NCBI RefSeq assembly: GCF_030433645.1
Contig: NZ_JAROCG010000001.1
Location: forward strand, 2,790,001 to 2,854,000
Direction of reading: 5' to 3'
Source of the DNA: Arthrobacter burdickii
GTDB taxonomy: Bacteria; Actinomycetota; Actinomycetes; Actinomycetales; Micrococcaceae
Length of the DNA: 64,000 nucleotides
In this document: one piece after another, positions 28,226 through 41,488 of the stretch
How positions within the stretch are numbered: position 1 is the stretch's first letter
Layout of the letters: each line of letters opens with the position of its first letter
Position numbers and translations under genes: made by a program
Notes under the pieces: model-generated
Seen by the model: the letters and a program-made list of their open reading frames with translations, nothing else
What the model was told of the DNA's origin: nothing
Databases searched by the model: none

Positions 28226-28696
28226 CGCCGACACAACTGGGCGCGTACTTCGCGTTCACGGAGGTGGGCAGCCTCCTGCGCTCCGGGGTCGAGAAACGGC
28301 TTCGCGATGCCGGGGGCCCTCAGTTACGTCCAGTTCCAGCTCTTGGCACGCCTGGGCGACGCCGTCGACGGCCACCTACGCATGACCGACCTCGCCGATG
28401 GTGTCGTCTACAGCCGCAGCGGCCTGACCTATCAGGCACAACTGCTTCAGGAGCGGGGCCTGGTCACCCGATCCCCCTCGCCCGACGATGAGCGCAGCAC
28501 CATCGTCGCCATCACCGCTGCGGGCCGCGACGTACTCCAGGCAGTATTTCCCGGGCATATCGAGGCCGTCCGTGGACTCCTCTTCGCCCCGCTCAGCGAT
28601 GACGACGCCACCGACCTCGCCCGCATCCTCGGTCAGGTCAGCGCACACCTCCGAGCAGCCCCACCCCGCTCAGCAGCCCGACGACGAAAGACCTGA
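28222..28696 (+). pseudogene. MarR-family regulator lacking its start and frameshifted
   Basis: One frame begins LTPTQLGAYFAFTEVGSLLRSGVEKRLRDAGG and, after a one-base change in GCCGGGGGCCC near 28306, another continues SYVQFQLLARLGDAVDGHLRMTDLADGVVYSRSGLTYQAQLLQERGLVTRSPSPDDERSTIV (both in parts), a typical MarR winged helix ending in an Arg-rich tail. No start codon precedes the first part. Such a MarR is often divergent from a quinone oxidoreductase; here the start codons of both and the space between them have been removed. The second frame alone (28307-28696) could still make an incomplete protein. Confidence 0.7.
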
Positions 28697-28942
28697 CCCT
28701 GTCCGATCCGGCCAGTGTCCGTGCAGGCCGGATCGGCCCATCAGTCGGCCCTCGTCCCGGCCGCGACGGTGGTGCGGCGTCGTCGCCCTTTCCTCGTTCT
28801 TGCGCCAGAGGGCACGAGGCCGTCGTCGCGCCGGCCTCCGCGTCCTCCATCACAGACCGCTTCGTCATGCGGCGTCACGCAGCGTCAAAGCTCGCCCTTG
28901 TGCTGGAAACCGTCCCGGTCCAGCGCCTAGTCTCGTACCTAC

Positions 28943-29024
28943 AGATCAAGAGTTCCAACGCGAAGCCCTGGCTCGTTGGACGGCAACCCCCTCCGTGGCG
29001 GGGTGCCCCAGGTGAAGATCCGGT
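28943..29024 (+). ncRNA. SAM riboswitch, SAM-IV / SAM-I-IV-variant type
   Basis: The core layout is clear: a short P1 (GATC 28944-28947 with GATC 29017-29020), AAGAGT, P2 (CCAACG with CGTTGG), then the conserved CGGCAACCCC hairpin closing with GGGGTGCC, and CCAGGTGAAGATC. The CCTGG in the P2 loop side can pair with CCAGG as a pseudoknot. This arrangement is that of actinobacterial SAM-IV or the SAM-I-IV variant. It ends 70 bases before the AmiS/UreI gene. When SAM is abundant, expression of the genes behind it should fall, probably at translation. Confidence 0.85.
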
Positions 29025-29093
29025 CCCGCGCACCAGCGTCGGGGCAAGCACGGCGCGGGCCTCGGGGCTCCGCGTCCCGTCGACGGGACCTCC

Positions 29094-29714
29094 ATGTCGT
29101 ACATCTGCCTCCTCCTGTCCGGAGCGGCCCTCCTGATCAACGGTCTCGGCCTCCTCGGCCGGGTCACATCCCGCGACTCCGGGTTCTTCAACCTGGTGAT
29201 CGGCACGCTCCAGCTGGTGATCGCGACGCTGATCGCGTCCGCCGGTGCTGCCGATCCCGCCGCGATCGGCTCGGCGAGCGGTATCTTCCTCTTCGGGCTC
29301 ACCTACCTCTACGTGGGGCTGGGCTCGGTCGCCGGGTTGGGTGCGTCGGGTGTCGGATGGTTCTGCGGGCTCGTCGCCGTACTCGCCGTCGTCTTCGCCG
29401 GCACCTCCCTGGACGACGACCCGGTCAGCTCGGTGCTGTGGCTCGCGTGGGCGGTGCTGTGGGGCCTCTTCTTCCTGCTCCTGGCCTTCGATGCGGCGCA
29501 CCTGACCCGGATCACCGGATGGAGCGCCATCCTGGTGGGCACGGCCAGCACCGTTCCTCCGGCCGTCCTCGGGCTCAACAGCGCCTGGCCGGCCGGCTGG
29601 ACCTCCGCCCTCGGCGTTGCCGGAATCCTCGCTGTGCTGTTCGTTGTCGCCGGTGCCGTCAGCTCCCGACCTGCAAAGGCGCCGGCGGCCCCGCAGGTCG
29701 CCGTTCCCGCCTGA
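29094..29714 (+). CDS. AmiS/UreI-family membrane channel
   Basis: This 206-residue protein has six to seven hydrophobic helices. It starts MSYICLLLSGAALLINGLGLLGR and continues with FNLVIGTLQLVIATLIA, FLFGLTYLYVGLG, GWFCGLVAVLAVVF, SVLWLAWAVLWGLFFLLLAF, GWSAILVGTASTVPPAVLGL, LGVAGILAVLFVVAGA. This is the AmiS/UreI layout (urea or short-chain amide channels), including the 'GLTYLYVGL' and 'WLAWAVLWGLFFLLL' signatures. No urease or amidase genes are near. Because a SAM riboswitch controls it and a DszC-like monooxygenase follows, its cargo may be a small neutral organosulfur compound rather than urea. Confidence 0.88.
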   Translation: MSYICLLLSGAALLINGLGLLGRVTSRDSGFFNLVIGTLQLVIATLIASAGAADPAAIGSASGIFLFGLTYLYVGLGSVAGLGASGVGWFCGLVAVLAVVFAGTSLDDDPVSSVLWLAWAVLWGLFFLLLAFDAAHLTRITGWSAILVGTASTVPPAVLGLNSAWPAGWTSALGVAGILAVLFVVAGAVSSRPAKAPAAPQVAVPA

Positions 29715-29787
29715 CGTCCGCCCCTCCGTACCCGTCCCGAAATCCCCTCCCATCTCCCCTCCATCCGCTTCCACCGAAAGGCCGACC

Positions 29788-31041
29788 ATGACCACGCTGA
29801 CCCACACCCCTCCAGCCACCGACGCGGAGTACGAGCTCCTCGCCGCCCGCTTCCGGCCGCTGTTCGCCCGCATCGCCGAGGGCTCATCCCGCCGCGAGCA
29901 GGAGCACGAGCTCCCCCGCGAGGAGATCCGTGCACTCATCGACGCCGGCTTCGGCGCACTGAGGGTCCCGGTGTCCGCAGGCGGCTCCGGCGCCTCACTG
30001 CCCCAGCTGTTCCGCCTCCTCACGGAGCTCGCAGCCGCCGATTCGAACATCCCGCAGGCCCTGCGCGCCCACTTCGCATTCGTGGAGGACCGCCTGGTAT
30101 CCACTGGAGCCCAGCGCGAGGTGTGGTTCAAGCGCTTCGTCGACGGCGAGATCGTCGGCAATTCCTGGACGGAGGTCGGCACCGTCACCATCGGAGACGT
30201 CATCACCAAGGTCAGCCCGGACCCGGACGACGCCGGCGCCTTCCGCGTCAGTGGAACCAAGTACTACTCGACCGGCAGCATTTTCGCGGACTGGATCGAC
30301 ACCTTCGCGCAGCGCACCGACAACGGGGTCAAGGTCATCGCGGTGGTCAGCACGCACCAGCCGGGGGTGACCCACAGCGACGACTGGGACGGTTTCGGCC
30401 AGCAGACCACGGGCTCCGGCACCTCCACCTTCGACCAGGCCCGGGTCGACGCCGTTAACGTCATCGACTTCGACACCCGGTTCAAGTACCAGACCGCGTT
30501 CTACCAGGCAGTGCTCCTCGCCGTCCTCGCCGGAAGCATCACGGCCGCCGAACGGGACGTGGCCCGCGAGGTCCGGAACCGCACGAGGATCTTCAGCCAC
30601 GGCAATGCGTCGTCGTTCGCGGCCGACCCGCAGATCCTGCAGGTCATCGGCGAGGTCTCCGCGGCGGCGTACGCGGCGGATGCGACCGTCGAACGGGCCG
30701 CCCGGTCGCTGCAGTTCGCCTACGAGGGCGCATTCCTCGGGGACGAGGTCGAGGACGAGCGCCGCAACGACGTCGCCGAACTCGAGACCGCGAAGGCTCA
30801 GGTCATCCTGTCAGCGCTCGCCACCCGCGCGACATCCGATGTCTTCAACGCGCTCGCCGCCTCCGGCGTGAGTACCGCGAAGAACTTCGACCGGCACTGG
30901 CGCAATGCGCGCACGGCCGCCAACCACAACCCGTGGGTCTTCAAGGCGAGGATCATCGGTGACCACTCGGTCAACGGTGCCGTCCCGCCGCGCGTCTGGT
31001 CCATCGGGGCTGCGCCGGGCGCCGCGCCCGCGAAAGCCTGA
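29788..31041 (+). CDS. DszC/SfnB-type acyl-CoA dehydrogenase-fold monooxygenase
   Basis: This 417-residue protein of the acyl-CoA dehydrogenase superfamily has an N-terminal helical domain (LAARFRPLFARIAEGSSRREQEHELPREEIRALIDAGFGALRVP in parts), a central beta-domain (GNSWTEVGTVTIGD, FRVSGTKYYSTGSIFADWIDTFAQR) and a C-terminal helical domain ending HWRNARTAANHNPWVFKARIIGDHSVNG. The 'SGTKYYSTGSIFAD' and 'HNPWVFKARIIGDH' elements are characteristic of the DszC/SfnB sulfur-acquisition monooxygenases, which use reduced flavin from a separate reductase. It probably oxidises an organosulfur compound to release sulfur. It follows the channel gene by 73 bases and shares its riboswitch. Confidence 0.9.
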   Translation: MTTLTHTPPATDAEYELLAARFRPLFARIAEGSSRREQEHELPREEIRALIDAGFGALRVPVSAGGSGASLPQLFRLLTELAAADSNIPQALRAHFAFVEDRLVSTGAQREVWFKRFVDGEIVGNSWTEVGTVTIGDVITKVSPDPDDAGAFRVSGTKYYSTGSIFADWIDTFAQRTDNGVKVIAVVSTHQPGVTHSDDWDGFGQQTTGSGTSTFDQARVDAVNVIDFDTRFKYQTAFYQAVLLAVLAGSITAAERDVAREVRNRTRIFSHGNASSFAADPQILQVIGEVSAAAYAADATVERAARSLQFAYEGAFLGDEVEDERRNDVAELETAKAQVILSALATRATSDVFNALAASGVSTAKNFDRHWRNARTAANHNPWVFKARIIGDHSVNGAVPPRVWSIGAAPGAAPAKA

Positions 31042-31046
31042 GAAGG

Positions 31047-31073
31047 TGCGCGCCCGCGGTCCGCGGGCGCGCA
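31047..31073 (+). terminator. Terminator after the DszC-like gene
   Basis: TGCGCGCCCGCGG (31047-31059) and CCGCGGGCGCGCA (31061-31073) form a perfect 13-base palindromic stem, starting five bases after the stop codon. Confidence 0.75.
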
Positions 31074-39845: not shown

Positions 39846-40505
39846 TCAGGACTCCCAGGCCTCCAGCAGCAGCCCGGCGGCACCTGCGGGGTCGGGTGCC
39901 GCGCAGATCGCGGACACGACCGCCATCCCTGCCGCTCCCGCCCTGCGGAGCGGGGAGGCGTCCGCCGCGGTGATGCCGCCGATCGCCACGCAGGGCAACT
40001 GCGCCGTGCCCGCCAGGGCAGCGACGCCGTCGACGCCGAGCGGCGCCGGGTGGTCCGGTTTCGTGGCCGTGGCATGCACCGCGCCGATGCCGAGGTAGTC
40101 CACCGTGCCGGCGGGAAGAGCATGGGCGACGGCGAACTCGTCAGCCGTCGCCGCACTGAGCCCGACGACGGCGTCGGGGCCGACGATGCGCCGCACCAGG
40201 TCGGGCGGCAGGTCGGACTGGCCCACGTGGACGCCGTGCACCTGTGCGCCCTGCGCCCGCGCCGCGAGGTACACGTCCACCCTGTCGTCGACCAGCACCG
40301 GCGCCCGACCGGCGACGGCGTCGGCGACCGCGGCGAGGAGCGCGACCAGGTCCCGCCCTCCCGCGTGCTTGTCCCGCACCTGCACGCAGGTCGCACCCCC
40401 TGCCACGGCGGCGGCGACGACGTCGACGACCGTCCGGGGCGCGCACAGCGCCGTGTCGGTCACGAGGTAGAGCGGCAGGTACGACGCCGGATCCGGCCGC
40501 GCCAT
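39846..40505 (-). CDS. thiE: Thiamine-phosphate synthase
   Basis: This 219-residue (beta/alpha)8 enzyme condenses hydroxymethylpyrimidine pyrophosphate and hydroxyethylthiazole phosphate into thiamine phosphate. Motifs are LVTDTAL, VQVRDKHAGGRDLV (phosphate-binding Arg and Lys), VLVDDRVDVYLAA, GVHVGQSDLPP, VDYLGIGAV and CVAIGGITAAD. Its ATG shares one base with the thiM stop (40505), so they are coupled. The TPP riboswitch upstream of thiM controls both. Confidence 0.95.
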   Translation of the reverse strand: MARPDPASYLPLYLVTDTALCAPRTVVDVVAAAVAGGATCVQVRDKHAGGRDLVALLAAVADAVAGRAPVLVDDRVDVYLAARAQGAQVHGVHVGQSDLPPDLVRRIVGPDAVVGLSAATADEFAVAHALPAGTVDYLGIGAVHATATKPDHPAPLGVDGVAALAGTAQLPCVAIGGITAADASPLRRAGAAGMAVVSAICAAPDPAGAAGLLLEAWES

Positions 40506-41350
40506 CAGGAGTCCTCCGGCAGGACCAGGCCCTGACGGACATCGGCCGGGGTGATCGCCGCGAGCGCATCGAGGAAGCGCGGGGCGAAGGTTCCCGGGCC
40601 TTCCGCCAGGATCGCGGCTTTCTCTGCGGCGAGCGTGTACACGCCGGTGGCCGCAGTTGCCGCGAGCAGTGGATCCGGTGTGAGCGAGGCGAAGGCCGCC
40701 ATCACGGCACCGAGCGCGCAGCCGCCGCCCGTGACGCGGGTCAGCAGCGGCGTGCCGTTGGCTACCCGGATGACGGCGCCGTCGGCCGGGACGACGGCGT
40801 CGACGGCACCCGAGACGGCGACGACGGACCCGTACCGCGATGCCAGCAGGCGTGCGGCGCCCAGCGCCGCGGCCGGCTCGTCCAGGGAGTCCACGCCGCG
40901 TCCGCCACCGCCCGAGCCGGCGAGTGCGATGATCTCCGATGCATTGCCGCGGAGAATGGTCGGGCGCTGGGCGACGAGCTGCTGGGCCGTCCGGGTGCGA
41001 ACGGTCAGGAACCCCACGGCGACGGGATCGAGGACCCACGGCGTGCCGGACGACGCCGCTGCCCCGGCGGCCTCGAGCATGGCCGCGCGCTGCGCCTCGG
41101 TCGGTGTGCCGAGGTTGACGAGCACCCCGGAGGCCACGGGCGCGAACTGCGCCGCTTCCCCGGGGATGTCGACCATGGCGGGGGCTGCACCGAGGGCGAG
41201 CAGCACGTTCGCGGTGAAGTTGGTGACGACGGCGTTGGTGATGCACTGGATCAGCGGGGAGGCGCTGCGCAGGTCTGCGAGCAACCCGGCGCAGGCCTCG
41301 GCGCTGATCGTGCGGGCGGGGTCCGCGGTTGCCGAAGGGAATTCCGTCAT
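40505..41350 (-). CDS. thiM: Hydroxyethylthiazole kinase
   Basis: This 281-residue enzyme of the ribokinase-like ThiM family phosphorylates the thiazole alcohol for salvage. Landmarks are [76 protein letters not shown] and the nucleotide-binding/catalytic CysGly region [21 protein letters not shown] riboswitch lies between about 41400 and 41488, directly upstream, and thiE follows, so this is a thiamine-repressed salvage operon. Confidence 0.95.
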
Positions 41351-41399
41351 GTGCTGCCTTCCGCTGGGGCGAGAGGACGGACGGACACCAGGGCCCGGC

Positions 41400-41488
41400 A
41401 GGACATCCCTTCGCCAGTATGAGCTGGATCAGGTTCGACGGGTCTTATCTCAGCCCCTCCGGTGGAGGGACACCCCGTGTCGCTGCTC
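41400..41488 (-). ncRNA. TPP riboswitch (THI element)
   Basis: On the minus strand the sequence reads ACACGGGGTGTCC, a variable hairpin, GGGGCTGAGAT, ACCCGTCGAACCTGATCCAG, then TACTGGCGAAGGGATGT. The CUGAGA pyrimidine-binding element and the ACCUGAUC...GCGAAGGGA pyrophosphate-binding helix are unmistakable. It ends about 50 bases before the thiM ATG, consistent with control of translation initiation or early termination by thiamine pyrophosphate. Confidence 0.97.

Follow-up and report, generated by a model that had tools for sequence, protein, structure and literature searches.

The AmiS/UreI family is known for channels that pass urea and amides. Within the 64-kb stretch of DNA analysed here (the window), the gene for such a channel was found between a SAM-class riboswitch and the gene for a flavin-dependent monooxygenase, which raises the question of what a channel of this family would admit to the cell under SAM control. 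The features of the locus are listed in Table 1.

Organization of the locus

The SAM-IV-class aptamer named in a preliminary description of the locus was recognised by the covariance model of RF00634 over its full length (positions 1-116), scoring 91.6 bits (gathering score 38; E value 3e-16); the 64-kb window has no other SAM-class element. Both-sided changes were found at 11 of the 28 consensus pairs among 14 copies. The spacing of 70 bases to the channel gene also agreed with the earlier description, the P1 helix ending about 70 bases 5′ of the ATG; counted from the end of the full Rfam match, the distance is 37 bases. A probable promoter lies about 10 nt 5′ of the aptamer; since a strict sigma-70 consensus scan called no promoter there, we infer it from sequence reading, and in most of the 16 leaders aligned a TANNNT-type hexamer was seen by eye at much the same spacing.

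Downstream of the aptamer, the likely ribosome-binding site of the channel gene is covered by a palindrome. In each of the 15 leaders preceding amiS this site was predicted to be mostly paired (P 0.52-1.00), and its predicted partner in same-genus leaders was often the post-aptamer stretch GTCCCGTCGA(C/T)GGGAC; in the one leader lacking amiS (L139) the site was predicted to be unpaired (P 0.01). The predicted pairing in the amiS leaders suggests that the SAM-IV leader controls the channel gene at the level of translation.

The operon is followed by an inverted repeat with arms at 31047-31059 and 31061-31073. The perfect 13-base terminator described before was borne out as a repeat (13 nt, 100% complementary, 1 nt loop); its role in termination is only probable because no T-run follows it, and a strict terminator scan of the site was empty.

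Table 1 Features of the locus in the window, and gene order in related SAM-IV clusters (LLM, NtaA/DmoA-type monooxygenase; MO, relatives of the window's oxidase; MOb, its 25-28% paralogue)
Feature	Position or locus	Strand	Evidence
MarR gene upstream of the trio	28307-28696		
Probable promoter, TGGAAA-18 nt-TAGTCT (-10), ~10 nt 5′ of aptamer	28904-28933	+	Sequence reading
SAM-IV riboswitch aptamer	28944-29056	+	RF00634, 91.6 bits; covariation
Palindrome GTCCCGTCGACGGGAC over likely ribosome-binding site GGGAC, putative translational expression platform	29074-29089	+	Sequence
AmiS/UreI-family channel, 206 aa	29094-29714	+	PF02293, 148.9 bits; AlphaFold; HpUreI top PDB match
Two-component flavin-dependent monooxygenase, acyl-CoA-dehydrogenase fold family, SfnB-like separate clade, 417 aa	29788-31041	+	TIGR04022, 258.5 bits (below cutoff); nearest structures; tree; catalytic residues
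Perfect 13-base inverted repeat, probable transcription terminator	31047-31073	.	Repeat search
SAM-IV-ABC-LLM-MOb-MO	L151		
SAM-IV-MOb-MO	L157		
SAM-IV-MOb-MO-APC permease-LLM	L159		
SAM-IV-MO-MFS-LLM-MO-LLM	L170		
SAM-IV-peptide-type ABC-LLM2-MO	L214, L215		
SAM-IV-MO alone	L154, L139		

Conservation in related genomes

A sample of 395 genomes of the family was surveyed, and the nearest relatives of the oxidase in it, at 78-100% identity, were followed; they come from three genera, with one locus in each of 17 genomes. SAM-IV was located directly 5′ of the orthologous monooxygenase gene in all 17 genomes. In 16 of them the channel gene lies between the two, so that SAM-IV, channel and monooxygenase form a trio, and every channel orthologue (16/16) was found in this position. 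The 17th genome (G278) has SAM-IV followed by the oxidase gene and carries no AmiS/UreI gene anywhere; there the channel is dispensable. The genes flanking the trio differ from genus to genus in the genomes viewed; thus the unit persists in different surroundings. These data support SAM-IV control, the operon and the functional linkage of channel and oxidase, as originally proposed.

Linkage of the channel to amidases or urease without the monooxygenase had been named as evidence against such a unit. Among channel relatives of at least 53% identity in the sampled genomes, no such case was found. Only distant AmiS proteins (<50% identity) have neighbours of this kind, namely an FmdA formamidase, an aliphatic-amidase-like gene or gdhA (product names from sequence), and these have no SAM-IV at the loci scanned and no oxidase in the same operon. 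A place beside an amidase or urease was therefore ruled out for the trio orthologue group, whose neighbours are SAM-IV and the oxidase. In G109 (L037/L171) an oxidase gene stands divergently about 1 kb from an AmiS gene; since two congeneric species have the channel but lack the oxidase, this was treated as incidental and rejected as a second independent pair.

The channel

Assignment to the AmiS/UreI family, made earlier from the sequence, was upheld by the PF02293 profile (148.9 bits, cutoff 25) and by the predicted fold. The AlphaFold model (pLDDT 92) matched the urea channel of Helicobacter pylori, HpUreI, best among PDB entries (3ux4/6nsj, TM 0.69-0.73), followed by SatP acetate channels. 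For residue comparison HpUreI was represented by two segments of the PDB alignment. Besides the two filter residues, we take Leu6, Leu13, Phe84, Trp146, Trp149 and Leu152 to be further constriction residues of HpUreI, and these positions are unchanged in 15/15 channel orthologues. The filter residues themselves, Tyr88 and Trp153 (PMC4482100), are likewise kept in 15/15, the HpUreI numbering past the loop being taken from residue spacing. Helix 1 is altered, with Ser for Val9 and Leu for Tyr8, and carries the signature ICL[LI]LSGAALL, which among the sequences compared is common only to the trio channels and a gdhA-linked sister group; the two together form one clade with support of 100/100. 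The trio channel therefore shares the fold and filter of the HpUreI/AmiS urea and amide channels, but differs from them in helix 1 and in its linkage to a SAM riboswitch and an oxidase in place of urease or amidase. Of the 16 genomes with the trio channel, 13, the host among them, encode no other AmiS/UreI protein.

In the gdhA-linked AmiS group (L016-L019, L040-L042) the helix-1 signature reads ICL[LI]LS.AALL, and no SAM-IV was found at these loci.

The monooxygenase

The oxidase had been described as DszC/SfnB-type, which holds at the level of the superfamily but not within it. Its best NCBIfam model is SfnB, with a score below the curated cutoff of 430.9, and among solved structures MsuC and DszC come closest to it (E about 1e-31). 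Against the DszC model NF043015 it scored only 118.4 bits, with a cutoff of 850, and in the tree it is positioned outside the DszC/TdsC/MsuC clade (100/100; several long branches); by score and tree, identity with DszC was ruled out. Comparison of sequences thus makes it a two-component flavin monooxygenase of the DszC/MsuC type in a broad superfamily sense, and a member of a separate clade with an altered pocket that is neither DszC, MsuC nor curated SfnB.

Besides His391, we take Asn129, Ser163 and Trp205 to be catalytic residues of DszC. In DszC numbering, Trp205 was found in 16/16 sequences and Asn129 in 15/16, with Thr at position 163. His391, which in DszC forms the flavin hydroperoxide (PMC11134501), was also present in 16/16. 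The pocket is different: Gly95 of DszC is replaced by Arg in all rows of the trio, clade 2 and clade 3, Tyr96 by Ala, Gly or Ser, His388 by Ala or Val in nearly all, and Ser131 mostly by Trp. As the catalytic residues are kept and the pocket is changed, the chemistry is probably oxygenation by flavin hydroperoxide as in DszC, on a substrate other than that of DszC or MsuC. Since the pocket is unlike that of either enzyme, the oxidase may catalyse something other than the S-oxidation of a small sulfide, and the invariant Arg could hint at an anionic substrate, to which a urea-type channel would be impassable.

The SAM-IV regulon and the flavin reductase

Seven SAM-IVs were found in the host genome. 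As read from sequence, one of them stands before metY-metX and one before metB-metY, behind which comes an HsaB/HpaC-type flavin reductase. Two precede importers, MetQ-MetN-MetI in one case and an ABC importer for amino acids in the other. Two more precede monooxygenases of the NtaA/DmoA family, the first of which is accompanied by another MetNIQ set. In 9/9 genomes, genes at least 88% identical to this first NtaA/DmoA gene lie about 35 nt behind a SAM-IV. The other members of the regulon being genes for methionine and sulfur supply, we count them in favour of a role of the trio in sulfur scavenging.

The preliminary description noted that no flavin reductase adjoins the trio and that reduced flavin would come from elsewhere. 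The reductase in the metB-metY operon of the host answers this in part: such a gene was seen in a SAM-IV operon in only 7 of the 17 genomes, and in five relatives (G038, G151, G136, G105, G085) it lies about 70-85 nt behind a SAM-IV of its own, with MetNIQ next in two. From its place in the host operon, the reductase serving the trio is probably co-regulated elsewhere in the SAM-IV regulon.

The second NtaA/DmoA gene is located close behind SAM-IV in the host (L062) and in G264. In sister species (L204, L206, L211, L212) a whole peptide-type ABC importer lies between SAM-IV and this gene, which looks like loss or gain of an importer at a fixed site.

A third NtaA/DmoA-like gene of the host was found beside a second DszC-superfamily paralogue of 28% identity (L072, L074; G000:C1:334388-337335), and no SAM-IV was detected at this locus.

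Exchange of importers in related clusters

Oxidases less closely related to that of the trio (42-66% identity) turn up repeatedly behind SAM-IV together with importers of other kinds (Table 1). The DszC-like enzyme of these clusters is MOb, which in L157 reaches 246 bits to the DszC model, below its cutoff. Because the core of SAM-IV and monooxygenase carries ABC, APC or MFS importers in these relatives, the trio channel may be read as its importer, and the gene orders support its placement in the importer slot. These swaps are the strongest argument on function that is independent of gene naming.

Proposed function

On balance we favour, though by no means with certainty, the reading that the trio is a SAM-repressed operon for scavenging a small uncharged organosulfur compound. 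The data establish the riboswitch, the gene families, the conserved linkage, the regulon and the exchange of importers; from them we infer the direction and site of regulation, the substrate and the chemistry as follows. When SAM is plentiful, it would be bound by the SAM-IV aptamer and expression would fall, probably because the ribosome-binding site in front of the channel gene is concealed. A shortage of SAM, and with it of methionine, would let channel and oxidase be made together. The compound would diffuse in through the channel and be oxygenated by the oxidase at or near sulfur, with reduced flavin supplied by the shared reductase encoded elsewhere in the regulon. The product would pass to the co-regulated NtaA/DmoA-type monooxygenases where these are present, and sulfur would finally enter O-acetylhomoserine sulfhydrylase as sulfide or methanethiol.

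Small neutral sulfoxides and sulfones such as dimethyl sulfoxide (DMSO) and dimethyl sulfone (DMSO2) are the likeliest substrate class, though at less than even odds; thioamides, thiourea and sulfonamides are the alternatives. PMC9259527 cites Arthrobacter species that metabolise dimethylsulfone. The published route from dimethyl sulfide (DMS) to sulfite (PMC13352529) does not suit every genome: in G116, which carries the trio, no NtaA/DmoA-type LLM was detected at E<1e-60, and SsuD above its curated cutoff was found in no genome examined, G116 included.

The first alternative overlaps with this reading. The oxidase may act on a larger or methionine-derived compound, or perform C-S cleavage itself, outside the route through DMS, DMSO and DMSO2; we regard this as possible while giving it less weight than the scavenging of a small neutral compound. 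The pocket residues, with the invariant Arg, point in this direction, as do the absence of an NtaA/DmoA-type partner in G116 and the SAM control, which indicates methionine supply and not general sulfate starvation. However, the filter of the channel is of the small-molecule type, and two-component monooxygenases of Acinetobacter act on small sulfides (PMC13352529).

A plain role in nitrogen supply, with the channel as a urea or amide pore that came by chance to lie in a SAM-regulated operon, is unlikely. Its fold and filter are those of urea and amide channels, the sister group adjoins gdhA, a gene of nitrogen metabolism, and distant relatives adjoin formamidase or aliphatic amidase. However, urease was found in none of the 10 same-genus genomes, host included (E<1e-60), being present in some genomes of other genera. 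Classic formamidase (575-584 bits) was found in only 3 of the 17 genomes, each time with a second AmiS alongside; the host has no classic FmdA, and two distant FmdA_AmdA-like proteins are present in it. The position of all 16 channel orthologues between SAM-IV and oxidase also argues against a nitrogen pore.

Slightly less likely still, the channel could vent or equilibrate a small neutral product of the oxidase, such as an aldehyde, an amide or a urea-like by-product, and not import the substrate. AmiS/UreI-type channels are passive and two-way, which would permit this, and the oxidase gene persists behind SAM-IV without the channel in G278 and L154. Against it, the same slot holds importers in related clusters (ABC with binding proteins in L151, L214 and L215; APC in L159) and no obvious exporters. 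That riboswitch, channel and oxidase are chance neighbours and not one unit is very improbable, given their conservation in 17/17 and 16/17 genomes of three genera with differing flanks; nothing in its favour came to light.

Comparison with known systems

The aptamer is the same as in the SAM-IV regulons of actinobacteria. In Mycobacterium avium SAM-IV precedes O-acetylhomoserine sulfhydrylase (PMC3774663), and the host too has a SAM-IV before metY-metX; here, an AmiS/UreI channel and a monooxygenase are also under SAM-IV. In the open-access literature we found no paper on SAM-IV with a monooxygenase, nor on AmiS/UreI with a riboswitch.

The Dsz/4S pathway (DszA, DszC, DszD) likewise joins oxidases of the NtaA/DmoA family and the DszC superfamily to a flavin reductase, and its His391 is kept in the trio oxidase. 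The trio differs from it in the clade and pocket of the oxidase, and the host genes are scattered under separate SAM-IVs. A second parallel is found in Acinetobacter baylyi, whose two-component monooxygenases convert DMS to DMSO and on to DMSO2 with one shared reductase (PMC13352529). Dms1-3, MsuD, MsuC and SsuD are likewise serial flavin-dependent monooxygenases acting on small organosulfur compounds, several per flavin reductase; Dms1-3 are likened here by description only, and the text consulted mentions neither a riboswitch nor a UreI-type channel.

Whether a UreI-family channel was recruited under a SAM riboswitch, together with a new oxidase clade, for uptake of small neutral organosulfur compounds, as a version with swappable importers of a SAM-IV organosulfur-scavenging regulon in Micrococcaceae, we judge to be evenly balanced. 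If true, the pairing of channel and monooxygenase under SAM control would extend the AmiS/UreI family to sulfur nutrition. The pairing also points to a riboswitch-run organosulfur regulon in soil actinobacteria, beside the protein-based control known elsewhere, and provides a candidate list for soil organosulfur use: the channel, the oxidase, two NtaA/DmoA enzymes and one reductase.

Other riboswitch loci

In four genomes (L175, L181, L194 and L198, in G038, G151, G379 and G339), SAM-IV was located directly 5′ of an ORF resembling class-V aminotransferases and cysteine desulfurases (LDYAASAPA motif, by eye), followed in three of them by a methyltransferase-like ORF (by eye). A divergent pair of weak SAM-IV matches (39-58 bits) about 200 nt apart was found in G136 (G136:C8:314929-315052(-)/315240-315403(+)), with similar pairs in G085 and G105; PIN-domain-like and alpha/beta-hydrolase-like ORFs, identified by eye, surround the stronger member. 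The window also has a TPP riboswitch (41389-41487, minus strand, 68.6 bits) before thiM-like (hydroxyethylthiazole kinase, 40505-41350, minus strand) and thiE-like ORFs, an arrangement of ordinary thiamine salvage.
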